64,000 nt of DNA from the NCBI GenBank assembly GCA_022496805.1, contig CM040087.1, positions 33,380,253-33,444,252 on the forward strand. The letters are read 5' to 3'. The stretch is from Pohlia nutans. Lineage: Eukaryota > Streptophyta > Bryopsida > Bryales > Mniaceae. The translations under genes and the position numbers were made by a program. Below the pieces are notes generated by a model. That model did not search any database and was not told the origin of the DNA. It saw nothing but the letters and a program-made list of their open reading frames with translations. Of this stretch, positions 16,545 to 58,783 are shown one piece after another. The number at the start of each line of letters is the position of its first letter. The stretch's first letter is position 1.

Positions 16545-19500
16545 ATGAAACCAAGTTGTCCCTCACTACTCTTGTGACCATGTCCATGTCAAATTCAGTC
16601 TGGTCTGTATCCTCAAACGTATCGTACCTCGGAGGGATGACAGCCTTGAATTTTGCTGCATGAATAGCAACACAGTGTAGGATTGATAGAACAATATGGA
16701 TAGAAGGGTCGTTAGATAGGTATGCCAAAACCGACAAGAGCAAGGTGAATGTCTCACGGCGGTTGAGTTGCTCTCTAACTGTGAAATGTGTTGTCTCCCT
16801 GGCCATATTGTAGAGATCAAGAAATATATCATGAAGCCTCTCGTTTGCTAGTGTGCGCCATGTAGACACCGTTGAGTATCTCAAAGTTATTTCCCGGCCA
16901 CTTGCACCCTTCAATTCTTTGCACTGCAGCAGTAAGGCACTCAAGAAGTTCTTCCCTTCAGCAACTGCCAAATTCCTCCATTTGTGTCCAGCTTCCGCCA
17001 GGCTTCGCAGATATGTGTGTCCCTGGAATCTGACATATTCTTCCCTACACAAGTTCATGCATGCTGACAGATTGGCTGGAAGTCCACCCCAATGTTGTTC
17101 CATTGCGGAGTCCATTTGGGCTTCTTTTCCAAAGGATTCTCGAGATCTCCAGTAATACTTTAAGAGCAAAGGCATGTCGGCTTGAGGAAGAACAAGTGCT
17201 TCATTTGAACTAAAGAAGAGAAACCTAAGGCGCTCGCTATCAGACATGAGCTTCTCGACCACAAGTCGAAAAGCATCAAGAGCTGTGGAGGAAAATAACG
17301 CCTCAGGCCATTTCACTTGTTGCATGCATTTCAAATGTTGGGGATACCACTTCCGCCGAGGAGAGAGCTTTGCAATTTCTTGCAAAATAGAGATTGCCTC
17401 ATGCTTGTAAGGCATACATGACCAGCAACGAGGAGACTGGAGTAATCTCATTGCTGACTCTGTTCCTGTCAAGCCTGTGAAAGGGTCAGGCAACACATGT
17501 GATGTCGAAGCATGCAGGAGAGCTAGATAGAGCCAAGCCGTTGGACCACTAGCTGGGCCTCGAAGATTCTGGAGGCGGTGATCAACCTCAAACACAAAGA
17601 AACTTGGGGAGGAGAACTGGGTAAGGTCGATCCCAACTACGGGGTGTTGATCCAAAGTTCCAATACCACCCTCCATTTCTCTCGTGAGCAGGCCTCGAGT
17701 GTGAGGAATTATCAAATAGTGCTTTCGGATGCATTGATCTGGCACATCGTGTTCTTCAAGCAAAAGGCCACTCCGCAATCCAATTAACGTGTTGATGTTC
17801 TGGTTCTCTGAAACTGAAAATCCCGGATGGTCACAAGACCAAAAGATGCCTGCCTTTGGGTCTACAATGAAGCGTATTCCCATTCGCGGTAGCTCTGCAG
17901 CAACAGTATCATCATCTTGATTGTCAAACACATGAACAAACTGGGGTAATTCAAGACGATGAAGCATTCGCCTGTGGAGCTCCTTGAAGCTTCGGCTGCG
18001 AACATCAACCAAATTTCGATCCGTCATTGTATCGCGTACATATCTTGACGTAATATTGAGAACAAATGGGACACCTTCAATGTCCGCAAAGCCAACGTCA
18101 TCAAACTTCACGGGGCGAAACAAAATGCATCCCAGAGATTCATCTGGATCCATGTGCTTAAAAGGCTCCGTACTTTGCTTGCTTGCTTTCAAGATCCAAT
18201 GACTGTGCTCTTCGATAAGGAGCTGTGGGAGATCGCCCTCAAAAAACCGATTGGGAAAGAGCTGCAGCTCACAACCACCATTCTGTCGTTCCGTTACAAG
18301 TAGACGATTGCCATCCACCAAAGCAAATGTAAACGTGGAGCCATTCAGTTTGTAACAGGTCACAAATGATCCTGGGCTACCTGCGGCTGGCTGCACTTGA
18401 AATACATGCTTGCCAAACACCCTCCCGTAGTCCTGGTGACTGGTGATTGTGGTAGGAAGGCGAGCTACTGGACATCCATCTACAAGAAAAGAGCCTCGCA
18501 AAATGTCCATCTGCAAAGTCATCTTGCGTCCACTTTTGTGTTCAAAAGTAGCCTTCCACCAGCGTTCGCAGGGCGATGTGTAGCGTTCCCAAAGTCCGAT
18601 TCGACCTTGATCAGCATCAGCCCAATGCTTGGATACAAAATTGCTCAAGCACGACTCATAATTAGTGACCCAATCATTTAGAGCGTCCTCCAAACGTAGG
18701 GCCGTATTTTGCACTCTTCGAAGAAGATTGCGTTGAAAGAGTCCAGCAAATGTTTCACGTGAGGATGAATCTCTGGAGTTCAAAAGAGCGTTATCACAGA
18801 TACGAGCCACAGCCCGCAGCCATGAAGTAACATCACCATTGTCTCTCAGGATAAACTTCAAATGATGAGCACTAACATCAAATGTGAGCGCTGCAATGGC
18901 GGCTACATCAACGAGCTTGGATCGTATTACTTGAATCTTCTGGATTGAAGATGCCGACATTTCCCCAAGCACTTGCTCAATTTTCTCCAACCAGCGTTCA
19001 GCAATTTCACGGCAAGAGAGAAGAATATCACTCGCTGCCTCTTGCCAAGCAGCTTCAGAGAGTGCCAGAATTCGTGCAGCAATGATAACAATGCTCAGTA
19101 GGCCCAAATGATCCTTCCAATTCTCTTTGTTTCTCTCCAACAAAACTCGTAATTGACGGATCATGTACTCTGCAAATGGTTGTTCTTGCATGTCCAAATG
19201 TGACTCTCGCACCCAACGTTCGAGAGAAGACGTTGGTGGGCCAGTCTGCCAAAGCGCCTGTGAAAACAAATTCACCACGCTTGGTTGAAACAACGATAGT
19301 GTTTGCATCTCAAGCACGCGGGAGATATTTCGAATCTGCAGACGATGGCCAGTCCGCAATGATCCAAATGCCTGAAACTCTGCTAAATTGAGTTTTGGAG
19401 GGCACTGCATCTGACGAGCCAACACCTGATTCTCATCGTGTGTCGTTGAAGTGATGGTCCATTGAAGGCACTCATAATCACCATCTACAGTGAGCGTCAG

Positions 19501-20292
19501 AAAGGAAGTATTTGCCCCTTCCTTGTAGCATGCGGTGCTTGCACTGTGATCACCACCTCCAGCTTCCATCAAGTGAACGTTGTAACCGTTTGGCATAATG
19601 AACAACTCGTTTGAAGCAGAGATATGCAGTGAAGAATAGTGTGATACTGAGAAGAGCTTGGAAGTGCTACAAAGAGTAGTCAGCTTTTCATATTTCTGAG
19701 ATTGGTCAGTTCTCCAATGCTCCAAAGGTTCGTAATTCAACCAAGTCCCACGCTTTTCCATAGACCCCAGCTGGACGCCTAATAGGTCCCGATTGAGAAT
19801 GTGCAGAGCATCACGGAGCACACTCAATTCGGTTGGGGTCGCAAGCTCATACACAACTGCATTCTGAAGATATCCTTCTTCAGGCAATGGATGCTCGTAG
19901 ATTTCCACCTTCATTCCCTTCGCTCTATTCTCCATTTCGCATTTACTACAACACCAGGAATAATGCAGCGATTTATATCCATAACTATCATAGATATTCG
20001 TGTGAGATGCTTTCCTGATAGAATCAAGAAGTTCATCATAAATTTCACGTTGCCTAGACACCTCCACCCGCTTCGCATGTTCCTGTGCGCCATCAAATAC
20101 TAAAATTTCGGCCTTGATCCTCTGGAGGTTGTCGTCCCTGTCAACAAAACATACTGAGAAGGAATGCGGGGAAGGCTGATCCTCGCTGATGAGAGAGACC
20201 CTCGCTAATGAGGGAGATTCACCCCTGGAACGAGTGGCAAAATAGGCCTCCAATGTCGCCAACTGCTCCATATCAGCCCGATGTACCAGAAG
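16486..20292 (-). CDS. Central segment of giant NTPase
   Basis: About 1,260 residues in one open frame. The first ATG is at 20269-20271 but the frame is open to the TAG just upstream, so this is an internal segment, not an independent gene. Recognisable family-like stretches include repeated beta-rich blocks (for example SPGSFVTCYKLNGSTFTFAL and FRPVKFDDVGFADIEGVPFV) and helical blocks near the end (AEAGHKWRNLAVAEGKNFLS). No catalytic motif is assigned. It ends ...KPYYNESSY then TAG, overlapping the next segment in another frame by 59 nt. Either a one-base frameshift, or a short intron (for instance AA|GTGGAT to GTGCAG|GG, 72 nt, which restores phase), lies here. Confidence 0.65.
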   Translation of the reverse strand, partial: LLVHRADMEQLATLEAYFATRSRGESPSLARVSLISEDQPSPHSFSVCFVDRDDNLQRIKAEILVFDGAQEHAKRVEVSRQREIYDELLDSIRKASHTNIYDSYGYKSLHYSWCCSKCEMENRAKGMKVEIYEHPLPEEGYLQNAVVYELATPTELSVLRDALHILNRDLLGVQLGSMEKRGTWLNYEPLEHWRTDQSQKYEKLTTLCSTSKLFSVSHYSSLHISASNELFIMPNGYNVHLMEAGGGDHSASTACYKEGANTSFLTLTVDGDYECLQWTITSTTHDENQVLARQMQCPPKLNLAEFQAFGSLRTGHRLQIRNISRVLEMQTLSLFQPSVVNLFSQALWQTGPPTSSLERWVRESHLDMQEQPFAEYMIRQLRVLLERNKENWKDHLGLLSIVIIAARILALSEAAWQEAASDILLSCREIAERWLEKIEQVLGEMSASSIQKIQVIRSKLVDVAAIAALTFDVSAHHLKFILRDNGDVTSWLRAVARICDNALLNSRDSSSRETFAGLFQRNLLRRVQNTALRLEDALNDWVTNYESCLSNFVSKHWADADQGRIGLWERYTSPCERWWKATFEHKSGRKMTLQMDILRGSFLVDGCPVARLPTTITSHQDYGRVFGKHVFQVQPAAGSPGSFVTCYKLNGSTFTFALVDGNRLLVTERQNGGCELQLFPNRFFEGDLPQLLIEEHSHWILKASKQSTEPFKHMDPDESLGCILFRPVKFDDVGFADIEGVPFVLNITSRYVRDTMTDRNLVDVRSRSFKELHRRMLHRLELPQFVHVFDNQDDDTVAAELPRMGIRFIVDPKAGIFWSCDHPGFSVSENQNINTLIGLRSGLLLEEHDVPDQCIRKHYLIIPHTRGLLTREMEGGIGTLDQHPVVGIDLTQFSSPSFFVFEVDHRLQNLRGPASGPTAWLYLALLHASTSHVLPDPFTGLTGTESAMRLLQSPRCWSCMPYKHEAISILQEIAKLSPRRKWYPQHLKCMQQVKWPEALFSSTALDAFRLVVEKLMSDSERLRFLFFSSNEALVLPQADMPLLLKYYWRSRESFGKEAQMDSAMEQHWGGLPANLSACMNLCREEYVRFQGHTYLRSLAEAGHKWRNLAVAEGKNFLSALLLQCKELKGASGREITLRYSTVSTWRTLANERLHDIFLDLYNMARETTHFTVREQLNRRETFTLLLSVLAYLSNDPSIHIVLSILHCVAIHAAKFKAVIPPRYDTFEDTDQTEFDMDMVTRVVRDNLVSFDKWMREHGGKPYYNESSY

Positions 20293-20295
20293 CTA

Positions 20296-20948
20296 AGATT
20301 GCAGTACACCCACATTCACGCCATGATGATAAGTGAACAGCAACGGGTGTTCGCAAGCTGCCTTGAAGTCTAATATTGCAACAAGGGTGATTGTTGTGAT
20401 GACCATCTTGCTTGATCCCAGAGCATCGTCTTTATAGTACATTTTGGAAAGATTCAAATAACTCCGGAGAAGCTTCAAAACCATTTCAGAGCTTAAAATT
20501 TCAACAGAGCGTTGACGCCCAGGCCACAAAACCTTTTGCACCCATGCTTCAATGTCATAGAGCGCTTGCCCCATGTTGACCAGATTTTCATGGTCGTCAT
20601 GACCTGAAGATTTGTTGTTGACGAGAAAATTCAAATTCGGAAAGCTGATCATGCCTTTGTTTCGGTCGGAGCATACGGGGTCATTCACCTCGATTGGATT
20701 AGGCTGCAATGTAGAATCCAAAGCCAATTGGAGATGCTGCTGGGCATTCACCAGCGAGTGCGTGATGTGCTTCGCAAAGCTGAGCTTGCTTGTGTCCACA
20801 CGCACTTTGGATTGACGTTCCTTGTCTTCAACAATCCCTTTCCAGCGCTTATCAATAAAAGCACGGATGTTTAACACAGTTTTAGAACATCGTTGAAGGA
20901 CCTCCTGAACACGAGAATGAATTTCTTGCCAAATGGTTGGGCCCGGTC
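20296..20948 (-). CDS. Helical middle segment of giant NTPase
   Basis: Continues after the intron with PTIWQEIHSRVQEVLQRCSK and reads to TAG at 20293-20295. It is predominantly alpha-helical in appearance and has no named domain. The residues after the TAG (LLVHRADMEQLATLEAYF) continue the same heptad-like pattern in the same frame, so the stop interrupts rather than ends the protein. Confidence 0.55.
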
Positions 20949-21128
20949 CTGAAGAACCCAGTCACAGTAGCCAAAACACAATCAAAATTCGAAAACTTAT
21001 GGATCCATAGGCATAGGTAGACTTCAGTGTATGATCATTCGGAAAGAAATTTAGAATTGCAATTAGCAGGATGCCAGGAAATCTAGAAAGAAAGGCAGAC
21101 AGACTGTGAAAAAGTTGGAATTTTCTAC
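20949..21128 (-). other. Spliceosomal intron in giant NTPase gene
   Basis: Donor GTAGAAAATT and acceptor TTCTTCAG on the minus strand delimit 180 nt. Splicing joins ...NLMDR to GPGPTIWQEIHSRV in frame and removes the TGA at 20962-20964. The interior is T-rich and hydrophobic when translated, unlike its flanks. Confidence 0.7.
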
Positions 21129-21336
21129 CTCGATCCATAAGATTTCTTAACTTGGATAGGCGACGAGCCAACTTACTAAGCATCTGCAAAACAACATCTG
21201 TTTCCAGATTCTTGTAATTCTGCTCCAAGATGCGAGTCATGACTTGTATCAATATGTATTTATAGACTATTAAGCCCTGCTGCTCGCCCAGAGTACCTAT
21301 AAGTGTGCTGTGGAGCACAATTTTCACAGTCATGTA

Positions 21337-22026
21337 CTATCCCGATCGACGCCATGGCAGTTCAGTATCATCCCATAGGACATCGTCACGAATTTTTTTC
21401 CTTACGCGCACCACACCTTTCTCGCCAGTGATGATCGATTCACCAGCCACTGCTAACAACAACCATGATGTCACGTAGCTTGGATCTACAACATCTCGTG
21501 TCTCGGGCACCTTTTTTCCAGCCTTTTTGGACTTCGGCAACATCTCTACAAATCTGGTGTTTGCGAGATCTGCAACTTGTTTAGCAAAAATCTCATTCCG
21601 AACTCTTTCTGCATCGGTTGTGACGGCCCAGCTCGGAAAAACATCAGATAAGTCACCCTCAGCTTGCATCACCTCTCTTGCGCTGGCAGCAACCCGGAAT
21701 ACCGCCAGAGTTGCGGATGGAAGCTCATCTTTGAGTGATATAGTGATACCAGCATTTTGTGCACGTAGATAGAGAGGGAATGTTTCACCTGGTTGAAGTC
21801 TATTGATACTATCGTGTACAAATTCCCAGCTGACAGAAGCTCCCTGGACCCTTGACCAAGCTTTCATCATCCGTTCTGCTTCCTTCAGTGCACGTAAGTG
21901 GGTGGCATCTTCCGCAAGAACTTGAGCAAATATTCTCACAAATTCTCCTTCAGAAGGGGAGTCAGATTGAGGTAATATTCTAGGAAGGAAAATATTGTTC
22001 ACAACGTGCATTCTGGTGTCGCCCAT
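21337..22026 (-). CDS. N-terminal DUF6606-like segment
   Basis: The segment begins MGDTRMHVVNNIFLPRILPQ, the N-terminal FLP-x-LPQ signature I associate with DUF6606, and ends in a run RKKIRDDVLWDDTELPWRRS that recalls the family's R-D-x-V-x-W...PWRRS motif. The frame is open further upstream to 22083, but the second ATG fits the family start better. It ends at TAG (21337-21339), after which the same frame continues with family-like sequence. Function is unknown; the region is thought to precede the NTPase part of a single polypeptide. Confidence 0.6.
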   Translation of the reverse strand: MGDTRMHVVNNIFLPRILPQSDSPSEGEFVRIFAQVLAEDATHLRALKEAERMMKAWSRVQGASVSWEFVHDSINRLQPGETFPLYLRAQNAGITISLKDELPSATLAVFRVAASAREVMQAEGDLSDVFPSWAVTTDAERVRNEIFAKQVADLANTRFVEMLPKSKKAGKKVPETRDVVDPSYVTSWLLLAVAGESIITGEKGVVRVRKKIRDDVLWDDTELPWRRSG

Positions 22027-22099
22027 CTTGATCTCAAGCTCGAGCTGCATGCCCTTTTGGAGTGAGATGAAAGTGTATGTCAAGTAAATTTACAATGTC

Positions 22100-27749: not shown

Positions 27750-27758
27750 TCCAAACCC
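27750..27758. repeat. MULE target-site duplication, left
   Basis: TCCAAACCC, identical to 37854-37862; 9 bp is the normal Mutator-superfamily duplication. Confidence 0.9.
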
Positions 27759-28140
27759 CCCCGTCTCTATATCCCCCGGTGGTCTTAAATGCGCTGGCCG
27801 TGAATAGGCGTGGCAGCGCGAGACGCGCGAGACTGGTCCCACGGGGTCCCACGGCCCGCCCGCCTCTTCTTTTCCTTCCGAGCCTGATTTTCTTCCGCCC
27901 GATTCCGGCTTTTTTTCTTGCTTGCTGCCCCGGTCTCGCGTGGGCCCTCTGCCACGTCGGATGTCTCGACCCTCTTGCCACGTCGGATGGCTCGCTACCC
28001 CGCCTCTTCCGCCTGCCACGTCATCAGTCCCGAGACAGCTCGTGCCACGTCGTCAGTCTCGCGCCCCCTGCCACGTATGCAGTCCATGGCATGGGGTATC
28101 ATGCATTCCATGGCATGTGAGAGGGTCTCATCCGAGTGAC
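27759..28140 (+). repeat. MULE left terminal inverted repeat (382 bp)
   Basis: Matches the reverse complement of 37470-37853. It contains five GCCACGT words (27951, 27977, 28015, 28044, 28070) and six GTCTCG/CGAGAC words. Both are likely protein-binding sites, for transposase or host factors. Open frames in it are shadows that reappear in the right repeat. Confidence 0.92.
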
Positions 28141-28175
28141 TTATCTCGGGTGGAAAACGTCTGTAGCCGGCGGTC

Positions 28176-28244
28176 TAGGGTTTAGGTTTTAACCAGAGAC
28201 GCTAGTAGATTCGCTTGGAACAGTTTCGGTCTGGTTTAGGGTTT
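28176..28244 (+). promoter_or_regulatory. Telo-boxes upstream of MULE transposase
   Basis: TAGGGTTT occurs at 28176-28183 and 28237-28244, just inside the left terminal repeat and before the transposase ATG at 28263. In plants the telo-box (AAACCCTA) sits near transcription starts. A matching AAACCCTAAA lies at 36844-36853 in front of the convergent gene block. Confidence 0.45.
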
Positions 28245-28262
28245 CAAGATCTCCGAGACTGC

Positions 28263-31116
28263 ATGCACAGTATTGACATAGATTCTACGCTTGTACCCTT
28301 GGGCAAAGACGAGCTTGACGATCTTGACGCGTCTTGGATTGGTTCATTCGAGCGACAGTTCATCTTGCGGAATCGTATCCCACTTCAACTCATTCGAGAC
28401 CAGGTGCAACAATGTCCTGATGGTCCTTTCACGCACAAAGATCTGAAGTGGGATTATAGGGGTGTGAAGGGTGGCGCCGGCGTAGCCTACATCCCGTGGC
28501 TAAGGTACGAGGATTTCGTGTTGGGCGAGTCGACGAAGCGGTCGGATGTGCAGACAAAGTTCAACACGCGCGAGACAGAACGGTACAAAGGGTCCCACCC
28601 GCGACTTGACACTCCACTAGTTTCCATCAGGTGTGCAAATATTTCTCGAATCGTATATGCCCACACAGTTACGTTCGTGATGTGTCTCGGTCATGTTTTT
28701 TGACCACCTTGTTGCCAAGCAGAATGGAGTGCGAGTTCGGGCCTCAAGACAAGTCTCGCGATGTTCTGGAAGTCACTGAAGACATGATGACGCAACCACA
28801 GAAGTACACGAAGAAAGGGAAAAACCTCCCAAATGGGCGCGGCAAGAGGAAACCAAGACTCACAGCGGCTATGAAGGGGGGGTCTCGGAAACGTGGCTGC
28901 AAGTGTGCAATTTATGTGAGGCAGTTGTATTACCTCCGAGACGTTGCACAAATCGTCCTTCAACATCCGCGCCACACGAATGCCGACGGATTAATTGTTC
29001 ACGGCATCGTGAAGGAGGGCGAGAGGTCTCGCTTCACATCCCAATTGTCTCCTGAAACTAGGGCATTCGTTGAGGAAAACCTTCGTCTCGGCGTTCCAAT
29101 CTCCAAGATTAAGACCATGCACATAGAACTCGTGTTGAGGCTTAGGGCTCAAGGCGCACCCGCGTCTCGGGATCATTTCATGAAGGACTCGGACATCCGC
29201 AATGTAGCGGTGAAGGTCAACCAAGCTGTATACCAAAAACACGAGAACGATGCTGAATCGGTCCGCATGTGGGTTCAAGCTAATCGGAACATAGTATTCT
29301 ATTACCAGGAATTGAACTCCGGTTCAGTCTCGGGAGCTTTAAACGGAGATAACATGCCCTTTGTTATAGGTATTCAAACGGACTTCATGTTTAGGATGAT
29401 GCTCGAACACGGCCACAAGAGTGCCGTCTCGATTGATGCGACATTCGGAACAAACGAAAAAAAGGTATTGGGTGCATTGCATGTCTCGTTTTTTTTTTTG
29501 AAACCTATACAGATGGTTTAGGGCTCGGAGTTTAGGGCCATCCGGACATCTATTGTTTAGGCCAGACAGAAGTACTAATGTGCTTCAATTACTTGCATGC
29601 AGTTTCCCCTCTACACTATGATGATCTTCGACAAATGGCAGAATGGATGTCCCGGAGCTTACGTGGTGACGTCTCGCAGTAAGCAATTAGACCTAGCTCC
29701 GTGGATGTTGGCGCTCAAGACTAAAATGATTGCCACTCTTCCTGAATGGCGTCCAAATGCCTTCATTGTTGATGATGCCCATGCTGAGATCAACTCGCTC
29801 CGGTAAGTATTCGGTTTCCCTTTCCTGTGCTGTCTCGCTTTAGCACTTACATCATTCAAGTATGCATGGACTCATTTGCATGCTTCCCAAGACGCAGGGA
29901 GATATGGCCCAATTGCTTGGTGTTCCTGTGCCTATGGCACGTGCGGAGGGCGTGGCAGAAGAACGCATGCTCGAAGATCAACGGGATTGCCACGCGTGCA
30001 TGGGCACTTCGAGAGCTGGGGAACCTCATGTACCTCTCGGAATCACCCATAGCAGGAATGACATTGCTCGAATATGCGAGACAGAGATTCGCCACGATCA
30101 GAACCAAGGTTTCTGGTGCCAATGCATTCTGGAGCTATGTGGACAGTACATGGATGAAGAAACTCGATATGTGGGTCACGGGCAATCGGAACATCCCACA
30201 TGCAGGCCAGGACACCAACGCCGCAATCGAGTCGTCCCACAATAACCTGAAGGCCGTCCTCAGAGCGTCTCGGGAAAGGCTTGTGGGGAGACGCGTGGAC
30301 TGGCTTATTGACGAGCTAACCAATGATGTTATAAATCGATACGAGTTTAACGCGTACATGAAAGAGAATGGCTTCGAGGGCAACCGGAAGAGGGAACGGG
30401 TAGTTATTAACTCCCTTCTACAGGCTCGCAAGATTCCTGACCATTGCATCACACTTCCATCCGAGACTGGAGAACCAGCCTATGTGACATCCAACAAGCG
30501 GCCCCATCTCCGTTACGCTGTGCACAACCCCGAGACAGAGTGGGGGTGTTGTAAATGCCCTCACTCAATGAAGGGCAATCTATGCAAACACCACTTGAAA
30601 GTGCTGAGGATGTTGCGCCCAGACCTTGCTGAAGGTGGCATCGTCAAGGTGTGCGGAACTCTGTATGGTACATCTCGCGGCGGTATCTCGCAGCTTGTCC
30701 AGTTCCCGGAGCTCCCCGAGATAGAGCCCGAACTAGCAGGCGAGACCGACCTAGATAGAGCCCCGGGTAATCTCGGCCCCGACGTCGAGACTGAGGATGT
30801 CGCTCCACCATCACCTAGGGCCGTGGACGAAGACAAGCGTTTCACTGAGAGCATTGACCGTCTCGCATCTTCCATCAGCGACAGGGCATTGAAGCACCAT
30901 CTCGTGAAGAGGCACTTGGAAGCAGAGCTGCGCGCTATGGATGCGAGACACGCTGCTATGGAACTACACATCTCACATGGAGTTCTACATCCCGCGCAGA
31001 GAGAGGCGGCGCCATTCGTTGGTAACGATGTAAACGGTAGTAATACTCTTCGTCGGCACCGAGACTTCCTCAGTAGCTGTTTCAGGTCCTCCAGGAACAC
31101 AAGACAGCGATTGTAG
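28263..31116 (+). CDS. MULE transposase (DDE, SWIM zinc finger)
   Basis: The gene starts at ATG 28263; an upstream piece to about 28,640 is joined to the next frame by a short intron or a one-base break near 28,630. Two canonical introns follow: 29465-29602 (AAG|GTATTG...TGCAG|TTTCCC) and 29803-29897 (CG|GTAAGT...ACGCAG|GGAG), after which ...EINSLR joins EIWPNCLVFLCLWHV. The catalytic triad is visible: D in SIDATFGTN (29435-29437), D in FIVDDAHAEI (29771-29773) and E in NAAIESSHNN (30229-30231). A SWIM zinc finger (CCKCPHSMKGNLCKHHL) lies at about 30,545-30,595. An acidic, proline-rich tail ends at TAG 31114-31116. It cuts and pastes elements through the terminal repeats and appears intact apart from the uncertain N-terminal junction. 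Confidence 0.85.
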
Positions 31117-31742
31117 TGTGTTTAATTTTTTCCGAGGCTGTAACTGTCTGGCGAGACGGTGTCAGAGGCTACCGTGCCTGGATTATTGACTTAAGAATAT
31201 TGTAATGGATTGAAGGTACCAAAATTTGGAAATTAGTCCAATCTGTCTCGGAATGGTTATGCTAAAACTCTGAATGTTCACTTCACGCATTTGCCAAAGA
31301 CTTCGAAATTGTACATACTCATCGGACAACGCACATGATGTACGGGAAAGGATGTTACTGAAATTCAAGTCTTTTAATTTACAAGGATGAGTATTCCAAT
31401 GTGTCCGTTCTACCGATGAGACAATATCACCGAGGCCTGAATTTGAAATTGGCGCAGTCTCGGTGCAGGACGTATTATGTACAATTTCACAGAGAAAAAT
31501 CTGTACATCTGCAAAAAAAAAACCAAGCTCTAACAAAATTCTATGTACTACATTCCCTAAGACATTATACCCTACAATATTGTCACATTGCTCGGACCCG
31601 GCTCGACATTTGTCCGCAGGGACCTCAGCTTTTCGAGATTGTCTCGTCTCGCCTTCTTGTCCGCCTCCACCCTTGCTCTGGTCTCGTGAGCTTCCTCCTC
31701 CTTTGGAAATGGAGGGGCTTGGACGTTGACATCTTGAACGTC
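31117..31742. other. Convergent intergenic region of MULE
   Basis: Lies between the ends of the transposase gene and the Ulp1-like gene. It must hold both terminators. It contains several GTCTCG words, including a doublet gtctcgtctcg near 31,640. No coding region is supported. Confidence 0.5.
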
Positions 31743-32642
31743 TCAGATGGGTCCCAATACATCATCAAGGCCGTATATGGTGCGCCCGCCCTCGTGTCTC
31801 GCCCAAGTAGGAGCCTCGATCTCGCGGTAAACAAGTTGATGTTCAGCGAGATCAAGTACGAAGCGAGGCTTCGAGTACCTGTGATCTGGTCTGGCTGTCT
31901 CGCAGTATATCAACTGCAGCAGAAACCGAGCACATAACTCTCCATTCCAATCCAGCCACTTCACCCGCATTACGTCTGCTTTCTCGAACGCGACGGGGTC
32001 TCGAGTTTCAAGACCCCGGTACTGCAAGTACTGCCACAACATGACGATGAGCATGTACCCGCATTCCCAGTCCGATCGTTGGTTTGGCCATTCCACGTTC
32101 TTCCATTTCCACGCCACAAGACGGACCCATTCCGAGGAACCTGGCCGAAACCCTCGCACTATACCCCAAGCAGAGCTGACAAGCATGACGAAGTCGTCGA
32201 AGGCCTTCGTGTCGTGGACTAAGTTCCTGGTCCCCACCAACATCGTCCTCTTGTCCTCCACTATTGCGAGACTCCAATGCTGTTTATCCATGTAGGGGAC
32301 CACGAGGGTGTCTTCTTGACCACTGCAGCCTTGGAAGAATTTGAGACCCATGTCACCGAGCCACTCCCAACTATCCTTGTTCTCTACCAAGTAGTAAGGC
32401 AAGATCCCGGTCAGATTTGAGCTGACGACGTGAATCCTGTCTCGGAGCCAATCCGGTGCTCGGAGCACCAGGGAGCGGAGTCCGAGATCCAGAAAGGGGT
32501 CTCGGAGCATTTTACGGGGCTCGAGGATGCAATCCCAGTCCTGAATTTTCGTGGGAACCAGGACTAGCCTGCGGATGTCATCAGAGAAATACACTGCAGT
32601 GTCTCCAACCTCGTGTTCAGATTGAAGTTCATTTCCTTGCAT
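31743..32642 (-). CDS. Ulp1-like cysteine protease domain (C48)
   Basis: The frame reads about 299 residues. Catalytic-type residues occur in family order: His122 (YMDKQHWSLAIVE), Asp144 (LVHDTKAFDD), Gln188 (EWPNQRSDW) and Cys194 (DWECGYML). This is the H-D-Q-C arrangement of SUMO-protease-like C48 peptidases. The ATG at 32,640-32,642 is probably internal to an exon: the frame is likely joined upstream by an intron (donor TCTGAG|GTGACG near 32,765, acceptor ATACCAG|GGAAATG near 32,655) to the preceding segment. Captured Ulp1-like domains are known from plant MULEs (Kaonashi, VANDAL). The cellular substrate is unknown. Confidence 0.75.
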   Translation of the reverse strand: MQGNELQSEHEVGDTAVYFSDDIRRLVLVPTKIQDWDCILEPRKMLRDPFLDLGLRSLVLRAPDWLRDRIHVVSSNLTGILPYYLVENKDSWEWLGDMGLKFFQGCSGQEDTLVVPYMDKQHWSLAIVEDKRTMLVGTRNLVHDTKAFDDFVMLVSSAWGIVRGFRPGSSEWVRLVAWKWKNVEWPNQRSDWECGYMLIVMLWQYLQYRGLETRDPVAFEKADVMRVKWLDWNGELCARFLLQLIYCETARPDHRYSKPRFVLDLAEHQLVYREIEAPTWARHEGGRTIYGLDDVLGPI

Positions 32643-32761
32643 TTCCCTGGTATTTCCATCAGCATTTGTTAGAAACGAGTCAGAAATTGGAACAATCCGG
32701 TCTTATAACAACATTATAACGAAATATCAATTCAGGAATTTCAAGAGTGGTTAGGGTATCG

Positions 32762-35516
32762 TCACCTCAGACTGTTGTAGTGGTGGGGGAAGTTCAAGAG
32801 TTTCATTAACGTGTCCCAATGCCACGCTTCAACTTGCACGGCGAACTCGTTCTTCAACTTCGTAGGTCTTACGCTGCTGTTTCGGAGCGGAGTCTCGGGA
32901 TCCATGAACTCAAAATGCCATTGACGCCCCCCCCACCAACGGCTTGTTCGGATGAACAAAGTTTCCCGGGTCCAACTGGAAAATCCTGGGAACAAGGTCT
33001 CCCGCGTGACCTGTCCCTGGCTCGATCACCTCGAGAGCAGTCTCGGAGTTACCTTTGCTTGGGCCATCCAGAATGACCGCTACCTCCGCCGATGGGGGTT
33101 CCGGTCCCACAATACCCTCCACAACCACCTCTGTCTCCGTTGCTTCGGGTCGAGGCTCCTGTCTCGTCTGATCATTTGCTTCGACTGGTGCGGCTTCTCC
33201 CGGATTCAGTCTCGCCTTGGCTTCCGCTTCAACCGGTGCGGCTTCTCCTGGGTCCGGTCTCGCCTCACCTTCTGGTTCGACTGGTGCGGCTTCTTGTGCA
33301 GGCGGTGCTTGTCTGGGCTTGGGCCATTCGCACATGTCCCACCTCTTGCATGCCACACCCAAAACCAGACTCGACACTTTCTCGGAACACAAAACACCTG
33401 ATTTATAGAGGTTCACATCAGCTGCATCTGGAAACCAGGGATGGAAGTGAGTAAGGTAGAGCATCCACGACAATGAATAACCCGAGACAGCACACATGAT
33501 TTGGTCTCGCATGAATGAAAACGAATACTCGTTGGAATAGAACTTACCTAGGTTTCGAACCGGGAAGAAGTGGATATCCAAATCCTCCCGTCGTGCAAGA
33601 CAGTCCCGTAACTGCGCTGCTGGACCGGCCGGTCTACACACGGACTCCTTGGACAAATTACACCACAGCGCTGCAAATATGTCTGGCTCCGAGACAGCGT
33701 AGTCCTCTACACCTCGACTTTGCGTATGCATGACCCACTTACTGAAAGGGGTCTACTTCCCGTCTTGCACCGCTTTCAATGCAGCAGCGGATACCTCCGG
33801 TGTGAAGCCCGTATCGACCAATGCGTCATCAGGTACGCCAAATAGCGCAGCCCCCACTGCAACGAGCATTGCGGACGCTCCCTTGAGACGGACAGTGTCA
33901 TCAGCCCACTTCTGAAGGGTCTCGCCGTTAGTGGCTCCTGTCATGGGATCCACTAAGCCGTACTCCACTTTGGCCAAGATAGAATACAGGCAAAGGAGAC
34001 ATGCACTAGTGGGGGGTAAAAGGTGAAGTGTCCTTGAACGTAGGGCACTCACAACCGTCTTCGCCTCTTCCATGGTATGCTTCCATGGCAGGGGTGGCAT
34101 CCTCCGAGACAGCAGACTGTTACCCGTACACATATGGTATAAGGGATGCCAGCCCCACACGCATCTCTCCACCTCCAGAGCTTTTGTCTCATCCCATTGG
34201 CGTAGCTGCTCGCGCACCCACTCCTCCCTCTCTCGACGTACTCGCTTTTGCATATCATCCTGTCTCGCCCGGAATACCTTGATCAACGACAGGCTCGCAA
34301 AATACTTGTGCGTCTCCAGACATCCATGTTGGGTCTTGCTAGCCTTCTCATCCCCGCCCTCCAGCCATGATATGGTGTCGTTGACTTTGGCCACCTCCTC
34401 GGCTGTATACATGTCCGGATGCTGCAGTACAGGGGCAATTGTAAGCACACAAACGTGAACCCCACGGAAGAGTATGAACCACGCCAAACGATAGGAACAT
34501 CAACCCTACTAAAGGTGATTATTTTTTACCTTTCGTTGGAGCCACGAGAATTTGCCATCTGCCTGGCATATTGCATTCTCAAAAGTGTCCCCTCTCCGAA
34601 AGGCCAAGACCTTCCCCACCATTTCGTCTGCTGTCCACGACGAGCAGGTATTGCTGTCGTCTCTCATGAGGCCGCAGTCCATGAGCAGTATAGCGAGACC
34701 GGTTTTGGGAAGAGGAGTTGGTGCTGGGAGTGCTTCTTCGGGTATGGCGGTCTCGGCCTCCCGAGTGATTTTCAGAAGCTCCTCCTCGCGCTGCCTGCGG
34801 AGACGTTCAGTGTCCGTGACAGAAGGTGCTGCTGCCTGTCCTTCGCTATCCACTTCCATTTGGATGGGGCTAGAATGCGGCTCGTCCCCCGAAGTGGAGG
34901 GAAGAAGTGCTGGACTCGAAGGACGTGCCCCCCCAACACCACCGGAGTTGGAAGGCCGAGAGCCCTTCCTTTCGTAGACTAAACCCTCCACCTTTCTCTT
35001 CTTTTCCTTGCCCCGATCACTATCTGAGGGCACCTCCCTCTTCTTCTCCTTGCCGTGGTCTCCAACCGCGCCCCCCGCACCTGAACTGCTTGCCTGAACG
35101 TCTCGGCCCGACTCCATCTCCCTCTCCTTCCCCTTACCGTGGGCACCTCCCTCTCCAATCACTACCCCCTCTGATGGCTCGCTTGCATAACCGTCTCGGC
35201 CCGACTCCATCTCCTGCTCTTTGCCCTTACCAGAGTTTCGGGCAACGTCCTCCTCTACGCTCCCACTCCGATCAGCGTCTTGGGTAGAGTCTCGCATGGA
35301 GACGTGGAAATTTGAAGGGGAGCCACCACGTGATTCACGAAACTTTGGCGGTTTGGGGGCTCTAACCGTGCACGCAGGGCCAACCGAGACAGGCTCCGTT
35401 TCTGGCTCCTCTTTCTTAACCTCGGGCTGAATTCGCTGGGGCTTTCGCTTCGCTTTTCTTCGGGCCTTTTTGGACTTCTTTGAACCCACGTCCTCGAAGT
35501 CGTCGTCATCATCATA
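32762..35516 (-). CDS. MULE basic/linker protein upstream of Ulp1 domain
   Basis: The first exon (35516-34530) encodes a highly charged segment: a DDDDDFED run, a lysine-rich nuclear-localisation-like GSKKSKKARRKAKRKPQR, and repeats of KGKE.EMESGRD. An intron (34529-34422, donor AAAG|GTAAAA, acceptor TACTGCAG|CATCC) joins ...SWLQRK to HPDMYTAEEVAKV. The next exon, to about 33,755, is helical (ARQDDMQKRVRREREEWVRE). A further exon (33731-32910) has a threefold repeat of about 15 residues built on EAAPVE..A.ARL.PGE. The frame then shifts at a C8 run (32927-32934) and continues to 32765. Whether this is fused to the Ulp1 domain as one protein depends on that shift. No known domain was recognised. 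Confidence 0.55.
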
Positions 35517-35975
35517 CTAGATCCGAGCGGGAGCGGCCAAAACGGAGTCCACATCTCGCTCCTCCTTCACCTCCTGCTTCACCAGTGGCTGACCATCCGG
35601 ATGCTTTGTCCACCAATTGTCAATAAGCTCCTTCGGAGTTTTAGGGCGGTCTCCAACCAAAAGAGCAGGCCAATTTTGCTCCAATGCATTCGGATAGAAC
35701 TTCAACCCGTCGTGGTCTATCCGACGGTGGTTGTTTAAACGGTGCTTCTGCATTAAACGTCTACTCTTTATCGGACAGAGCACGCAATAAAATTGCTTGT
35801 GTGTATAGAAAACCGGGGGGTTGTGGCATTCTACGAGCATTCGTCCCCATTCCTCTTCTGTCCATGTCTCCAAATAGTGATGCTTGTCTATAGTTATTCG
35901 CTCCTGAACAATCCCGTCCTCCAAGCGAATTCTTGGGGCCTTCAAATCCGCGGCGCTGAAAATCTCTTGCACCAT
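35517..35975 (-). CDS. MULE-encoded C2H2-like zinc-finger protein, 152 aa
   Basis: ATG at 35,973-35,975 opens a 152-codon frame with a finger of the form C64-x2-C67-x10-H78-x4-H83 (FYCVLCPIKSRRLMQKHRL...H), rich in Arg and Lys. It ends at TAG (35517-35519), but the same frame continues directly into the basic linker protein, so the TAG may be a real terminator, a lesion or part of an unrecognised intron. A DNA- or RNA-binding role is inferred from the finger only. It is transcribed away from the right end of the element, downstream of the 216-bp tandem repeats. It is my preferred candidate for a factor that reads the GTCTCG word. Confidence 0.5.
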   Translation of the reverse strand: MVQEIFSAADLKAPRIRLEDGIVQERITIDKHHYLETWTEEEWGRMLVECHNPPVFYTHKQFYCVLCPIKSRRLMQKHRLNNHRRIDHDGLKFYPNALEQNWPALLVGDRPKTPKELIDNWWTKHPDGQPLVKQEVKEERDVDSVLAAPARI

Positions 35976-36194
35976 TCTGCCCTCCCAGTTGGTACTCCCT
36001 ATACCGAGACATTCATGTAATTAGTATATGAACCCATCTACAAACAAGGCAATAAACTACACGAGCCCGAGAAGTAGGCGAGACCCTATCACAGACCCTG
36101 AACCACCTAATCAGCAATGAAGAACATATATGAAATCATCACGCCATGCCACTGGATCCTGTAACGAGACATAAAGAAAGTCAACATCCCACAT

Positions 36195-36720
36195 ACATTT
36201 GCCACTACGAATGCACACTGCAGTAAACAGATGAAGCCAGCCTGATCAAGACCTGCGAGACTGAGCATGTAGCACTGCAAACTAAGCAGGTGAGTCTCCC
36301 TACACCGAGACTGAGATTTACATGATCAGTATTCCAAATCTAATGACAATCCATCACGCCAGGCCAGTGGACCATTTCAGAAGAGCTAATCGATGTTTTC
36401 GGGCTATTATACATTTGCCACTACGAATGCACACTGCAGTAAACATATGAAGCCAGCCTGATCGAGACCCGCGAGACTGAGCATGTAGCATTGCAAACTA
36501 AGCAGGTGAGTCTCCCTACACCGAGACTGAGATTTACATGATCAGTATTCCAAATCTAATGACAATCCATCACGCCAGGCCAGTGGACCATTTCAGAAGA
36601 GCTAATCGATGTTTTCGGGCTATTATACATTTGCCACTACGAATGCACACTGCAGTAAACATATGAAGCCAGCCTGATCGAGACCCGCGAGACTGAGCAT
36701 GTAGCACTGCAAACTAAGCA
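36195..36720. repeat. 216-bp tandem repeat, about 2.4 copies
   Basis: Units start at 36195, 36411 and 36627 (acatttgccactacgaatgc) with a period of exactly 216 bp; the third is cut at about 94 bp. A diverged partial copy (catcacgccatgccactgg) precedes them near 36,140. Each unit carries two to three CGAGAC words. The array sits in the promoter side of the minus-strand gene block. Confidence 0.85.
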
Positions 36721-37469
36721 GACCCTAAACCCTTCAATGACATCCACGCATGAATTTGCTAACCAATCACGGGAATGCAACAAAAACATAACCCTAAACC
36801 GGAAATGACCGAATCTCTAAACCGTAAACCAAACCTGCTGCTTAAACCCTAAACAATCTAGTCCGGACACATGCAATGTGAAGCAATGAAATGATAATCC
36901 GTCAACCTTCGCCAACTTAAGCGTTCAAACCGCACCCCAGATTATACAAACAGCTGCCTTTACAGACGATCATTTATGCATAGACGCAAAACAGTAATTC
37001 GTCTAATCTCTGATTGCATATACTCACAATTTTTTCGTGAATGAGATGCGCTGCGCTCCAGTCGATGAGGATCCCGACGTATGCCTAAACCGCGCTAAAA
37101 CCTTGAACCCTAAACCGAGTGCTGTTGCAGGAATGGCGAGACGGAACTTTATCCTCCAAAATCTCCAGGGCGCAAAAATTAAACCGCAAACAGCAATTCA
37201 AAATCCAATTGCAACAAGAGCAAGGCGCAAACAACCAAAAACAAAATGAGGAACCAAGGAAATCTGAGGAAGAAGAAGATGGAGGCCACCATCATCATCA
37301 GCCGTCTCGCCATCATCATGCCATGATTTGAAATGAATTACCAGAATGAAAAGCCATCCTAACCCTAGGCCGCCAAACGTACGAGACTGGGTGGGCCACC
37401 ACTTGAATGACATGATGACAGACAGCTTGGGTATGATGGATGACATCTAACATCGGATGGATGACACCT
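36721..37469. other. MULE right subterminal region
   Basis: Non-coding as far as can be seen, with several ACCCTAAAC words (telo-box-like; 36,722, 36,791, 36,844, about 37,107) and scattered CGAGAC. It probably holds the promoter of the minus-strand block. Open frames at 37037-37331 have no support. Confidence 0.45.
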
Positions 37470-37853
37470 GTCACTCGGATGAGACCCTCTCACATGCCAT
37501 GGAATGCATGATACCCCATGCCATGGACTGCATACGTGGTAGGGGGCGCGAGACTGACGACGTGGCACGAGCTGTCTCGGGACTGATGACGTGGCAGGCG
37601 GAAGAGGCGGGGTAGCGAGCCATCCGACGTGGCAAGAGGGTCGAGACATCCGACGTGGCAGAGGGCCCACGCGAGAGCGGGGCAGGAAGCAAGAAAAAAA
37701 AAGCCGGAATCGGGCGGAAGAAAATCAGGCTCGGAAGGAAAAGAAGAGGCGGGCGGGCCGTGGGACCCCGTGGGACCAGTCTCGCGCGTCTCGCGCTGCC
37801 ACGCCTATTCACGACCAACGCATTTAAGACCACCGGGGGATATAGAGACGGGG
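37470..37853 (-). repeat. MULE right terminal inverted repeat (384 bp)
   Basis: Inverted copy of 27759-28140. Differences seen: GTTGGTC for GCTGGCC, C for G in a GTCTCG (making CTCTCG), CTTCCTG for CTTGCTG, A for G before CCACGTATGC, and a T9 versus T7 run. Confidence 0.92.
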
Positions 37854-37862
37854 TCCAAACCC
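37854..37862. repeat. MULE target-site duplication, right
   Basis: TCCAAACCC, identical to 27750-27758. Confidence 0.9.
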
Positions 37863-38437: not shown

Positions 38438-38981
38438 TGTTAACCGAATATTAGTAGATATTCCCTTAGGCTAAGAGTAGGCTAGTCTATACCCGGCAGG
38501 AATAGACCCAGCAGGAGACACGTGGTAGTACAGGCTGGTACAGACTGGTCGACCCGACTTTTCCAGTCGACCAGTCTGACACACTGTCAGACTAGTCTCC
38601 TATATGTACCTTCACTCTCTTCGAGAGAGTGGTTGCTATACCATTTGTACATCTTTTTGGCAGCCTCAGTTGTACTTCATTCCTGTCTTAAGCTCCTCTT
38701 GTGCACACTAGTATGTTAGACTACTGCTGTTAGACTACTACTGCTTCCTGCCCTTGAATCATTCCTTGTGGTTGTATTTTGGATAGTTGCAGTAGTCTGT
38801 GGGTATGCAGGAGTCGACTTACTAGTATACTAGTGCTTTCCTTTAGTCGACAGGTCATTCTTCATAGTAGAGATCTCTTACTACTCCTCTCAATCTCTAT
38901 AAAACTAGTCGATAGTGGAATAGTGAGAGGCGCAGTAGCTTCATTCGTTTAAGGTCGGTTCCTAGAAAAACCTCCTTAACA
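38438..38981 (+). repeat. Gypsy-1 5' LTR
   Basis: 544 bp, TG...CA ends. It holds three small hairpins: AGACTGGTCGAC/GTCGACCAGTCT (38542-38553, 38566-38577), AGTCTGACA/TGTCAGACT (38573-38581, 38585-38593), which share AGTCT and so exclude each other, and CACTCTCT/AGAGAGTG near 38,611-38,629. Confidence 0.95.
38898..38904 (+). promoter_or_regulatory. TATA box of Gypsy-1 LTR
   Basis: TATAAAA about 80 bp before the LTR end implies a long U3 and a short R-U5. Both LTRs of Gypsy-2 have TAGAAAC at this place. Confidence 0.6.
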
Positions 38982-46063: not shown

Positions 46064-48558
46064 TCAGTCGTGGACGTCGCTAGAGTCCTGGGTCATGCCT
46101 GGCAAGCGAATATCGGAAGGCATTCCTGAGAAGTCGAACCCCAGAGAGTGTGGTGAAGAGATGACCGGTAAGTCGACTGAGGTGTTGTCGACCGATGGTG
46201 TCGGTGCTGTCATCATCTGGTCGGGTGCTAGGGTCTGCTGATCCTGCTGTTGCTGTGGAGGAGGAGGATGTGGAGTGGCTGGCTGCTGTTGCACCGTGTC
46301 TTGACTGTTGACTGGCGGTGGCTGCGGGTCTTGTTGCTGCTGATCGCGGTCTTCGTCTTCATTGGTCGACTCGCTGTCGTCTTCGTCTTCGTCCTCACTT
46401 AACTTGATATCGGTAGTCAAGACCTCGTCTTCGTCAGTCGACTGGTTCTCCCAGAGCGAATGGTCGGGTTCGAGGTGGCTCGTATCCTCCTCTTCGTCTT
46501 CGTCGACTGCTCGAATCTCCAAGTCTGGGTGGTCGAGCTGAAGTTGGTCGAGTTGCCTGCGGTACATGTTGAGTTGGTTGCGGTCGGTGCTGAGGGTGTG
46601 CTTCAGAACCTTGATACGATTTCTTGCCTTGAGTCGGAGTCGGTACTTGCGCGCTCAAAGCTTATGTAACTGCAGCTCTCGACTTGCGAACTGGCGGGAC
46701 TTCTCCTCGTTGTCCTGGAGTAGTAGGTCGAGTCGGTTATTGGAGTCGACTATCTCCCTCCGAGCTTGCTGAAGACTGCGCTGGGTTGTTGCTACCTCGG
46801 TTCGTGCCGCCTCAAGTTCGTTTTGTGCTAGCACGAGCTCGCTCTGGTGTTTCTGTTCCTGCTGTCGACTGCTGTGGAGGTCGGCTTCTAGCTAGGTCAA
46901 TCTGTTGTCGGTCTGATTCTTCGCCTCTGTGACGGTGGTGAGAGTAGTACGGAGTCTTGCCAGTTCGATGGTGAGGTTGTCGACCTGTTGCTTGTATGTT
47001 GTGGAGTCCTTGGTCAGTCGACTGCTTTCCAATCGGTGGCGGTCGAGCTCGGCTTGAAGTGTGGTTTTTGCTTAAACAGCCTCAAACAAGAGGAAGTTCA
47101 CTCGGGAGCCGACATCCTCGAGTCAACCTACTGCTCCTTGGACGACCTACTGCTCCTTGGACGTCCTCCAAGCGCTGGCGCCAGTGCTCGTGTTGTAGCT
47201 AGTGATGTTGGTGAGTCGGGTGCGGGTCGATTGATTCCAGGTGATGGCGGCGGTCGAGTCGTGGGGGAGACGGGTGGTGGCTGGCGAAATTCGCCGGTTG
47301 GTGCCGCTCCATATGCTGCTTCGAGGTTGAGCGGCGCGAAGTCGGATAGAGAAGGCGGAGGTGTGTCGGGGATGGGAGTCTCTTTTGGCGTTGGTGGTCG
47401 AGTCGACTGGGCCTCACTGTCAGAAGAAGTCAGCTCGACCTGTCAAGGTCCAAACTGACTCAAGGGTGTGAGTTTACCTCGTTTGGCACGTTTCTCTAGT
47501 CGCTCCTGGTCCCGCTTGCGTGCGAGTGAGGAGCGCGTCTCTCTTCGTTCTGTGGTCGGTTGGCTCCCGGTAGTGGCTGTCGGTGCTACTGGGTCGGGTG
47601 TAGTTTGTCGACTAGGAGGTCGAGCAGTCGATGTTTGGCCCTGGTCAACTGGTCGGGGCGGCCGAACATGGTCCTTCGAGGTGCGGTCGGATCCCAGCCC
47701 GCCTTGGAACACGATGTAGTCGGGTCCTCGGAAGTTGTTTTCCGAGTTCTCCGACTGTCGACGTCGGTCTTTGGTGTTCTGCTGGGCGACTGTTTGGTGT
47801 GCATATTCCTCGTCAGTGCTAGGAAAATAAGACTCGAGAAGGAAGTCTAATACCTCGGCTGAAGGGCAGATCGTGGTCTTCGTGGTTTGCATCGCCTTGA
47901 TGTCGATGGCGATCGAGTTGAACATCCATGTCGCCCAGTCCCATTGCATGTCGCGGTCGATCAGGGCCTCGACTGTGCAGACTACGTCGAGCATTTCCTT
48001 GCTGATGTAGGTCGTCTTGCGTTTGAATCCGAGGCCTTGAATGAATGCCGTCAGTCGCCTGTGGTGTTCGGGTTTGCAGTGGCAGATGCTGTAGCCCTCG
48101 GCAGTCCTGCCGGCTGCAGAATATTCTTCTAACCGACCCGGTGGGAACTCCTCAGGGTCGATTGGCTGGATAGTAATGCCAAATGGCAGTTTGAGAACCT
48201 CGTGAATCACAGTCGGGTCGACTGTGACTGTATGCGTGCGGACTCGTGCAGTGATCAACTTGTTGGGTAGGTCGACTACCGCAGCGTTGACGAACTCCTC
48301 GATCAGCTCCATGCGTAGCACGCGTTGAGGGTTGTCCCAGTCGAGTGCTACAAAGTCTGCAACGCCGATTGCCTTGATGAAGTCGGCCTCCGTCTTGTGT
48401 TCAGCTGCGTACTCGCGCCATTCTCGCATCGGCCGCATCGACTGGAAGGCGAGGGTTTTGTAGAGTCCCTCCCTAGTGCGGATCAGAATTTCGTAACTCG
48501 GTGGTGCGGAGGACCAAAGGTGTCGGGCGCTGCGATCAGTCGACTTGCCTTTCGCCAT
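46064..48558 (-). pseudogene. Gypsy-2 C-terminal (3' ORF) domain, decayed
   Basis: The counterpart of the Gypsy-1 C-terminal domain. It starts at an ATG (48,556-48,558; MAKGKSTDRSARHLWSS) right after a TGA (48562-48564) where Gypsy-1 has CGA. Further stops come from CGA to TGA (47443-47445), CAA to TAA near 47,074, CAG to TAG near 46,893 and CGA to TGA near 46,655. The last open piece (46567-46064) carries the acidic run and a Q/P-rich tail ending near SSDVHD. This is a fragment of the polyprotein, not a separate gene in the intact family. Confidence 0.85.
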
Positions 48559-48561
48559 CGA

Positions 48562-55233: not shown

Positions 55234-55776
55234 TGTTAAGGAGGTTTTTCTAGGAACCGACCTTAAACGAATGAAGCTACTCCGCCCAAGACTATTCCAC
55301 TCTAGACTAGTTTCTAGAGATTGAGAGAAGTAGTAAGAGGTTTCTACTATGAAGAATGAACTGTCGACTAAGGAAAAGCACCAGTATGCTAGTAAGTCGA
55401 CTCCTGCATACCCACAGACTACTGCAACTATCCAAGATACAACCACAAGGAATGATTCAAGAGCAGGAAACAGCAGTAGTCTAACAGCAGTAGTCTAACA
55501 TACTAGTGCGCACAATAAGAGCTTAAGACAAGAATGAAGTACAACTGAGGCTGCCAAAAAGATGTACAAATGGTATAGCAACCACTCTCTCGAAGAGAGT
55601 GAAGGTACATATAGGAGACTAGTCTGACAGTGTGTCAGACTGGTCGACCGTAAAAGTCGGGTCGACCAGTCTGTACCAGCCTGTACTGCCACGTGTCTCC
55701 TGCTGGGTCTATTCCTGCCGGGTATAGACTAGCCTACTCTTAGCCTAAGGGAATATCAACTAATATTCGGTTAACA
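55234..55776 (-). repeat. Gypsy-2 5' LTR
   Basis: 543 bp; the primer-binding site lies beside it at 55,220-55,231 read on minus. The hairpins of the Gypsy-1 LTR are conserved in position; the TATA box is changed to TAGAAAC. Confidence 0.94.
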
Positions 55777-55781
55777 GCACC
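55777..55781. repeat. Gypsy-2 target duplication, right
   Basis: GCACC, identical to 45386-45390. Confidence 0.93.
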
Positions 55782-58700: not shown

Positions 58701-58783
58701 TCCTGACTACCGACGTCAAGTTAAGTGAGGACGACGACGAAGACGACAGCGAGTCGACCAATGAAGATGAACAATTTTCCTAG
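55782..58783 (+). CDS. Gypsy-1 polyprotein, 3' part with fused C-terminal domain
   Basis: Continues the integrase frame (GPY/F-like WFGPYRVQY.., then DPDPVVVNVNKL) with no stop to TAG 58781-58783; total uninterrupted coding would be 2,981 codons. After a basic Ser/Pro linker (about 56,200-56,575) comes a globular domain starting at an internal ATG 56579 (MAKGKMTDRSARRLW) with a pattern TVTVDPTVIHEVLKLPFGI, which recalls plant retroelement ORF1/putative transposon protein domains. A long coiled coil (about 57,950-58,560) and an acidic tail follow. This is the position of env-like genes in plant gypsy elements, but no signal peptide or membrane segment is seen. Relative to Gypsy-2 the end lacks about 350 bp coding for a Q/P-rich tail. 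Confidence 0.85.

Follow-up and report, generated by a model that had tools for sequence, protein, structure and literature searches.

Repeated short sites for an element-encoded protein are known from the transposons Ac/Ds (subterminal transposase sites) and Spm/En (TnpA sites), TnpA of the latter also being able to reverse methylation. Such sites are confined to the few hundred bases at the ends of the element, whereas the word GTCTCG/CGAGAC dealt with here spans an entire MULE of Pohlia nutans. The publications on the VANDAL21 and VANDAL6 MULEs of Arabidopsis describe many copies of a short motif, which is bound by an element-encoded protein (PMC5735166, PMC10398659). In these publications, the motif is YAGTATTAY in VANDAL21 and AGTTGTCC/AGTTGTAC in VANDAL6, relatives such as VANDAL8 also having the latter; the former is bound by VANC21 in non-coding DNA, and methylation disappears from entire elements; and the VANDAL motifs lie in non-coding regions and accumulate by tandem repeats (PMC5735166, PMC10398659). 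In bacteria, DNA uptake sequences constitute an over-represented word of self DNA that is explained by mutation and uptake bias, i.e., by molecular drive (PMC1939737). Like these uptake sequences, which mark self DNA, the MULE word is short and over-represented; unlike it, uptake sequences span whole bacterial genomes and serve DNA uptake, whereas the present case concerns one plant transposon family. Searches of open-licence full texts listed no description of a transposable element in which a single word saturates the coding DNA as well. By comparison with the systems above, a family-specific anti-silencing motif is known, and an array throughout coding DNA would be new.

The element was a full-length MULE of 10,095 bp, located at positions 27759 to 37853 of the window, i.e., the whole stretch of 64,000 nucleotides that was analyzed (Table 1). 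It possesses long terminal inverted repeats (TIRs) of about 383 bp, as is typical of MULEs, and a 9-bp target site duplication (TSD), which falls within the range of MULEs (8 – 11 bp). A perfect 9-bp TSD was also seen at seven of the nine other full copies analyzed, while reading of the flanks revealed no clean 9-bp duplication at the edges of copies C11a and C3b. The limits assigned to the element in an earlier note are thus exact according to the TIRs and the TSD, and its designation as a MULE agrees with the TIRs, the 9-bp TSD, and the MULE transposase domain, all of which were present.

Table 1. Coordinates in the window of the features of the MULE
Feature	Position	Strand	Remarks
Left TSD, TCCAAACCC	27750..27758	.	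9 bp, perfect match to right TSD
Left TIR	27759..28140	+	99% complementary to right TIR; 40 scored genome matches
Array of 77 GTCTCG/CGAGAC words	27759..37853	.	extended motif [GC]CGAGACNG
Transposase exon 1 (model)	28263..28582	+	ORF, splice sites, relatives in alignment A1
Transposase exon 2 (model)	28669..29464	+	acceptor revised after alignment with relatives
Transposase exon 3	29603..29802	+	ORF, splice sites, alignment with relatives
Transposase exon 4	29898..31116	+	Pfam, alignment with relatives
Gene 2, last exon	31743..32702	-	by eye, resembles a Ulp1 cysteine protease (order H, D, Q..C)
Gene 2, middle exon	32910..34499	-	two ORF pieces in window copy
Gene 2, first exon	34509..36020	-	C2H2-like zinc finger near N-terminus, lysine-rich stretch
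216-bp tandem repeat	36193..36721	.	2.4 copies, 7 words; upstream of gene 2
Right TIR	37470..37853	-	99% complementary to left TIR
Right TSD, TCCAAACCC	37854..37862	.	9 bp, perfect match to left TSD

The word GTCTCG/CGAGAC was the commonest 6-mer of the MULE, with 77 occurrences (42 GTCTCG and 35 CGAGAC) versus 5.8 expected from the dinucleotide composition, which represents a 13-fold enrichment (Poisson P ~1e-57). In 200 first-order Markov simulations, no hexamer reached a count above 22, so that the word also exceeded its Markov background in the k-mer check proposed previously. The remaining 53.9 kb of the window contained 14 further words. This recount bears out the earlier note, which had counted about 75 copies in 10.1 kb against about five by chance and had described the word as scarce elsewhere in the window; its estimate of one copy every 130 bp or so is matched by a measured mean spacing of 131 bp. 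The words were evenly spread along the MULE (ten equal bins, chi-square 6.8, 9 df), and their spacing had a CV of 0.82 (P 0.05 by simulation for regular phasing). The enrichment concerned this very word, as its one-mismatch neighbours were enriched at most 2.6-fold and, among the 48 CG-containing anagrams (CGAGAC/GTCTCG included), the next counts were those of CCGAGA (37), which overlaps the word, and then 11. Retention of CpG as a cause was rejected, given a CpG observed/expected ratio of 0.83 outside the words and counts of at most 11 for the other CG anagrams, CCGAGA excepted. The extended motif was SCGAGACNG, with graded flanks as in a binding-site matrix (G/C at position -1 and G at position +7); all other columns up to 12 bases on either side of the word carried at most 0.11 bits of information. 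The 77 sites stood in 69 distinct 22-bp contexts, and word-bearing tandem arrays were few (the 216-bp repeat, a 48-bp repeat, and short ones of two copies). Unlike in VANDAL elements, most sites of this MULE are not in tandem, and accumulation mainly by tandem repeats does not apply to it. The location of the 216-bp repeat (36193 – 36721) nevertheless recalls the tandem motif arrays of VANDAL elements.

The density of the word amounted to 14.4 per kb in the TIRs, 8.05 per kb in other non-coding DNA, and 6.67 per kb in coding or ORF DNA. The latter two values correspond to 22 words in 2.7 kb and 44 words in 6.6 kb, respectively, and do not differ (Fisher P 0.50 for coding versus other non-coding DNA). 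A restriction of the motif to non-coding DNA, as in VANDAL elements, was therefore not found (6.67 versus 8.05 per kb), the coding DNA of this MULE being as word-dense as its spacers. Moreover, the words in coding DNA fell in all reading frames. Densities and frames are in agreement with the claim made before that the word ignores strand (42/35), frame, and coding status. Similarly, the transposase contained 21 words versus 2.4 under synonymous-codon shuffling (sd 1.4, maximum 7, 1000 shuffles), and the gene-2 ORF pieces contained 23 words versus 6.8 (sd 2.3, maximum 15). Coding constraint as a cause was ruled out by synonymous and codon-order shuffles, and the earlier note was correct in considering it insufficient. 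Residues overlapping a word matched those of relatives in 48 of 144 cases (33%), versus 883 of 2,059 (43%) elsewhere, in a comparison that treats related sequences as independent (P 0.03); judged from these sequences, the words would seem to come at some expense of conservation in the proteins.

The genome of 697.8 Mb (332 contigs) was searched with the TIR, resulting in 40 scored matches among 312 candidates. All ten full-length copies that were read, namely that of the window and nine others, held 73 to 89 words each. Of 92 word sites (alignment columns present in at least nine copies), 86 occurred in at least seven of the ten copies, indicating that the array is ancestral to the ten copies, and individual copies had lost some words in the ten-copy alignment. 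A contrast of the word with other hexamers, pooled across copies, gave no proof of selection, being confounded by ancestral abundance, in which the word ranks fourth. The enrichment ended at the element borders. Across 20 edges, corresponding to half of the 40 scored TIR matches and including the two of the window, with several being both ends of one element, 355 words were counted in 37.6 kb inside (9.4 per kb) versus five in 30.0 kb outside (0.17 per kb). The latter count, together with three and zero words in two long host exons, answers the host-gene check with nothing comparable in the host DNA covered (element flanks and these two exons). Genome-wide, close pairs of GTCTCG numbered 1,620 versus 3,764 pairs of a control word, the latter being of different make-up. 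Among about the first hundred close-pair places, which lie on C1 and C2, four C1 clusters surrounded transposase loci and most others were scattered pairs.

A search with a related transposase as the query yielded 103 matches (532 candidates, 68 of them scored), and seven loci of 2 kb were taken from these. One of them, L074, represents a sister family with 85.4% DNA identity to the window MULE over 1,531 bp. It contained 17 words in 2.0 kb (z 14.2, whereas 300 simulations reached at most 7.25). The aligned block of 1,531 bp comprised 14 word positions, nine of which were shared, three were present in L074 only, and two in the window MULE only. Hence, nine of 11 window words (binomial P 0.007) and nine of 12 L074 words (P 0.017) were kept, against a baseline of 0.405 for hexamers in general, the conservation in the sister family being measured over 1.5 kb of this one locus. 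The six farther relatives (L075-L080; 2 kb sampled each, about three groups by similarity, four loci resembling one another) contained one word in 12.0 kb. The earlier note had proposed that related MULE families be checked for enriched words of their own; none of these six loci was comparably saturated, L078 (G000:C13:15793500-15795499) being borderline. In the latter, CAGTCG occurred seven times in 2.0 kb versus 0.5 expected (z 8.9, whereas 300 simulations reached at most 8.86) and was absent from the next 900 bp; from its sequence, CAGTCG is possibly this locus' own word. In addition, ten words were counted in 98.8 kb from a further set of MULE loci (the best 30 of 150 PF10551 matches), which formed a single similarity cluster and whose top hexamers had z values of at most 8.3. 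As the farther relatives and the cluster of thirty loci are nearly devoid of the word, its saturation is, among the MULEs sampled and on sequence evidence, a trait of one lineage and not of MULEs generally. Having a dense short motif specific to the family, common here to the family and one sister family, is a feature shared with VANDAL21 and VANDAL6.

The transposase gene (28263 – 31116, + strand) was modelled with four exons and displayed the MULE domain PF10551 above the cut-off (E 3.4e-10; exons 2 – 4), in a scan that used the first exon model. Its catalytic region aligned with relatives from Ceratodon (moss), Adiantum (fern), and Riccia (liverwort), the nearest named match being that of the moss (43% over 64% of the query). 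Judged by these relatives, the host would be a land plant and probably a bryophyte. A C-rich, SWIM-like motif recognized by eye aligned with relatives too, and was without a Pfam SWIM match. Gene 2 (36020 to 31743, - strand) is convergent with the transposase gene, and its C2H2-like finger was also present in P0023 and P0024. This gene is interrupted in the window copy; some other copies are intact there and broken elsewhere. In particular, the junction in the middle exon was open in some other copies, for example C3a, C11a, and C11b, and the last exon stopped early in the window copy relative to other copies. This last exon gave a weak PDB match (6dg4, E 0.71), which a two-sequence profile did not repeat, and the structure predicted for this end of gene 2 was of poor quality (pLDDT 37.7). 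Pfam searches retrieved no C48 peptidase domain in gene 2, nor any match over the cut-off in the gene-2 ORF pieces. A VANC/DUF1985-like domain was not found either (Pfam, E <= 1, gene-2 ORF pieces), in a search of raw exon pieces that a very divergent domain could escape. Relatives were absent from the viral_contigs and genome_contigs searches. An assignment to VANDAL is withheld, because the VANC domain was not found in the ORF pieces of this MULE, in which it differs from VANDAL, and the motif is neither exclusively non-coding nor mainly in tandem.

Next to the MULE, two nested Gypsy LTR elements (window positions 38438 – 59385) were saturated with a different word, which the earlier note does not bring up. 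AGTCGA was found 145 times versus 16.4 expected in 38701 – 59000, and AGTCGAC 85 times versus 4.7. The matrix fitted to the inner Gypsy copy was palindromic (RGTCGACY); counted strand-wise, its sites numbered about 440 in 10.1 kb, which corresponds to about 220 places. The Gypsy word runs through gag-pol and an extra ORF; in gag-pol, AGTCGA occurred 42 times versus 10.6 in 200 synonymous shuffles. The MULE word was not in excess in the Gypsy elements (5 versus 6.9 expected). Substitutions between the Gypsy copies were not depleted in the motif (4.1% inside, 2.9% outside, and 3.9% in permuted motifs), so that purifying selection on it after insertion is not visible. The extra long ORF follows pol (55775 – 58783, + strand, and 47443 – 48561, - strand). 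The former showed a coiled-coil-like match (WEMBL) below the cut-off, the latter a weak Pfam match to Transposase_32 (E 0.04). This ORF is a candidate for the reader of the Gypsy word. Elsewhere in the genome, G000:C17:13366365-13401328 contained six RT-RNaseH matches, four of their five steps measuring 5,964 to 5,965 bp, a pattern suggestive of tandemly arrayed retroelement copies. As to host DNA, the window contained a large gene (12522 – 22089, - strand) with DUF3638 (E 8e-74) and DUF3645, whose two longest exons (12.5 – 20.3 kb) held CGAGAC three times and not at all, and AGTCGA three times and once, all within the shuffle range.

The reading preferred here, the chances of which are about even, is that the whole DNA of the MULE constitutes a binding-site array for a protein of its own, anti-silencing and probably element-encoded. 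The words would be the sites of one sequence-specific DNA-binding protein with SCGAGACNG as its motif. Its reader would most likely be encoded by the element, either as the protein of gene 2, which has a C2H2-like finger and a Ulp1-like end, or as the transposase. It would coat or mark the element's own DNA, most likely sparing active copies from silencing. A copy richer in sites would be at an advantage, and sites would thereby accumulate by point mutation, even at the expense of amino-acid conservation. A non-palindromic motif that is blind to strand, together with its density in coding DNA, suggests that double-stranded DNA is recognized along the entire element, in contrast to RNA signals or transposase sites at the termini. 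Anti-silencing self-marking may be inferred by analogy with VANDAL and VANC. The earlier note had suggested such self-recognition, and the dense family-specific motif, with a matrix like that of a protein-binding site, supports this part of it, but the counterpart of VANC, a VANC/DUF1985-like domain, was not encountered. Further findings count against self-recognition, namely that farther transposase relatives persist nearly without the word (one in 12.0 kb), that the parallel Gypsy motif shows no depletion of substitutions between two copies, and that the Ulp1 reading of gene 2, the ORF pieces of which gave no Pfam match over the cut-off, is based on motif order and a PDB match of E 0.71, with a poor fold model. 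A broader proposal, more doubtful and offered tentatively, is that, in this plant lineage, unrelated transposons (the MULE family pair and a Gypsy family) each carry throughout their DNA, coding parts too, an element-specific address word every 50 to 130 bp, read by a cognate DNA-binding protein that keeps the chromatin of that element alone open, and that words, coding constraint, and reader co-evolve as bacterial uptake sequences do.

An unlikely alternative to this self-recognition, yet the best surviving one, is that the sites bind a host factor (a transcription factor, an insulator, or a chromatin protein), which the element exploits to stay active. The motif resembles a binding matrix and is without a tie to any element protein, as would suit a host factor, although the word is scarce in host DNA (5 in 30 kb of flanks, three and zero in the exons), its close pairs are fewer genome-wide than those of the control word of different make-up (1,620 versus 3,764), and the adjacent Gypsy elements employ another word. 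In addition, the auxin response element TGTCTC misfits, since a preference for T before GTCTCG is absent. Still less probable is a reading in which the transposase binds the words, these sites either promoting transposition or titrating the protein and playing no role in silencing. The density of words is highest in the TIRs (14.4 per kb), and a transposase is present, as are ten full-length copies, but cut-and-paste transposition needs the ends and not 44 words in coding or ORF DNA, the subterminal sites of Ac/Ds and Spm stay near the ends, and the six related transposase loci are nearly without the word. Lastly, it is disfavoured and very improbable that the words merely arose, without function, through duplication, gene conversion, or biased mutation, for although some words lie within duplicated DNA (the TIRs and the 216-bp and 48-bp tandem repeats) and substitutions of the nested Gypsy copies were not depleted in the Gypsy motif, the 77 sites stand in 69 distinct contexts, neither the neighbours nor the other anagrams are comparably enriched, the words exceed synonymous shuffles, and their positions are kept in the sister family.

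If the words are indeed the target of the element's own protein, selection for self-recognition would be strong enough to shape coding DNA across a whole transposon. Should readers of the two words, that of the MULE and that of Gypsy, be found, the case would go beyond a variant of known motifs. If true, self-recognition would extend beyond flowering plants and to two transposon classes that are unrelated, and it would offer a direct handle on the selective escape of transposons from silencing as well as a supply of orthogonal proteins that bind specific DNA sequences.
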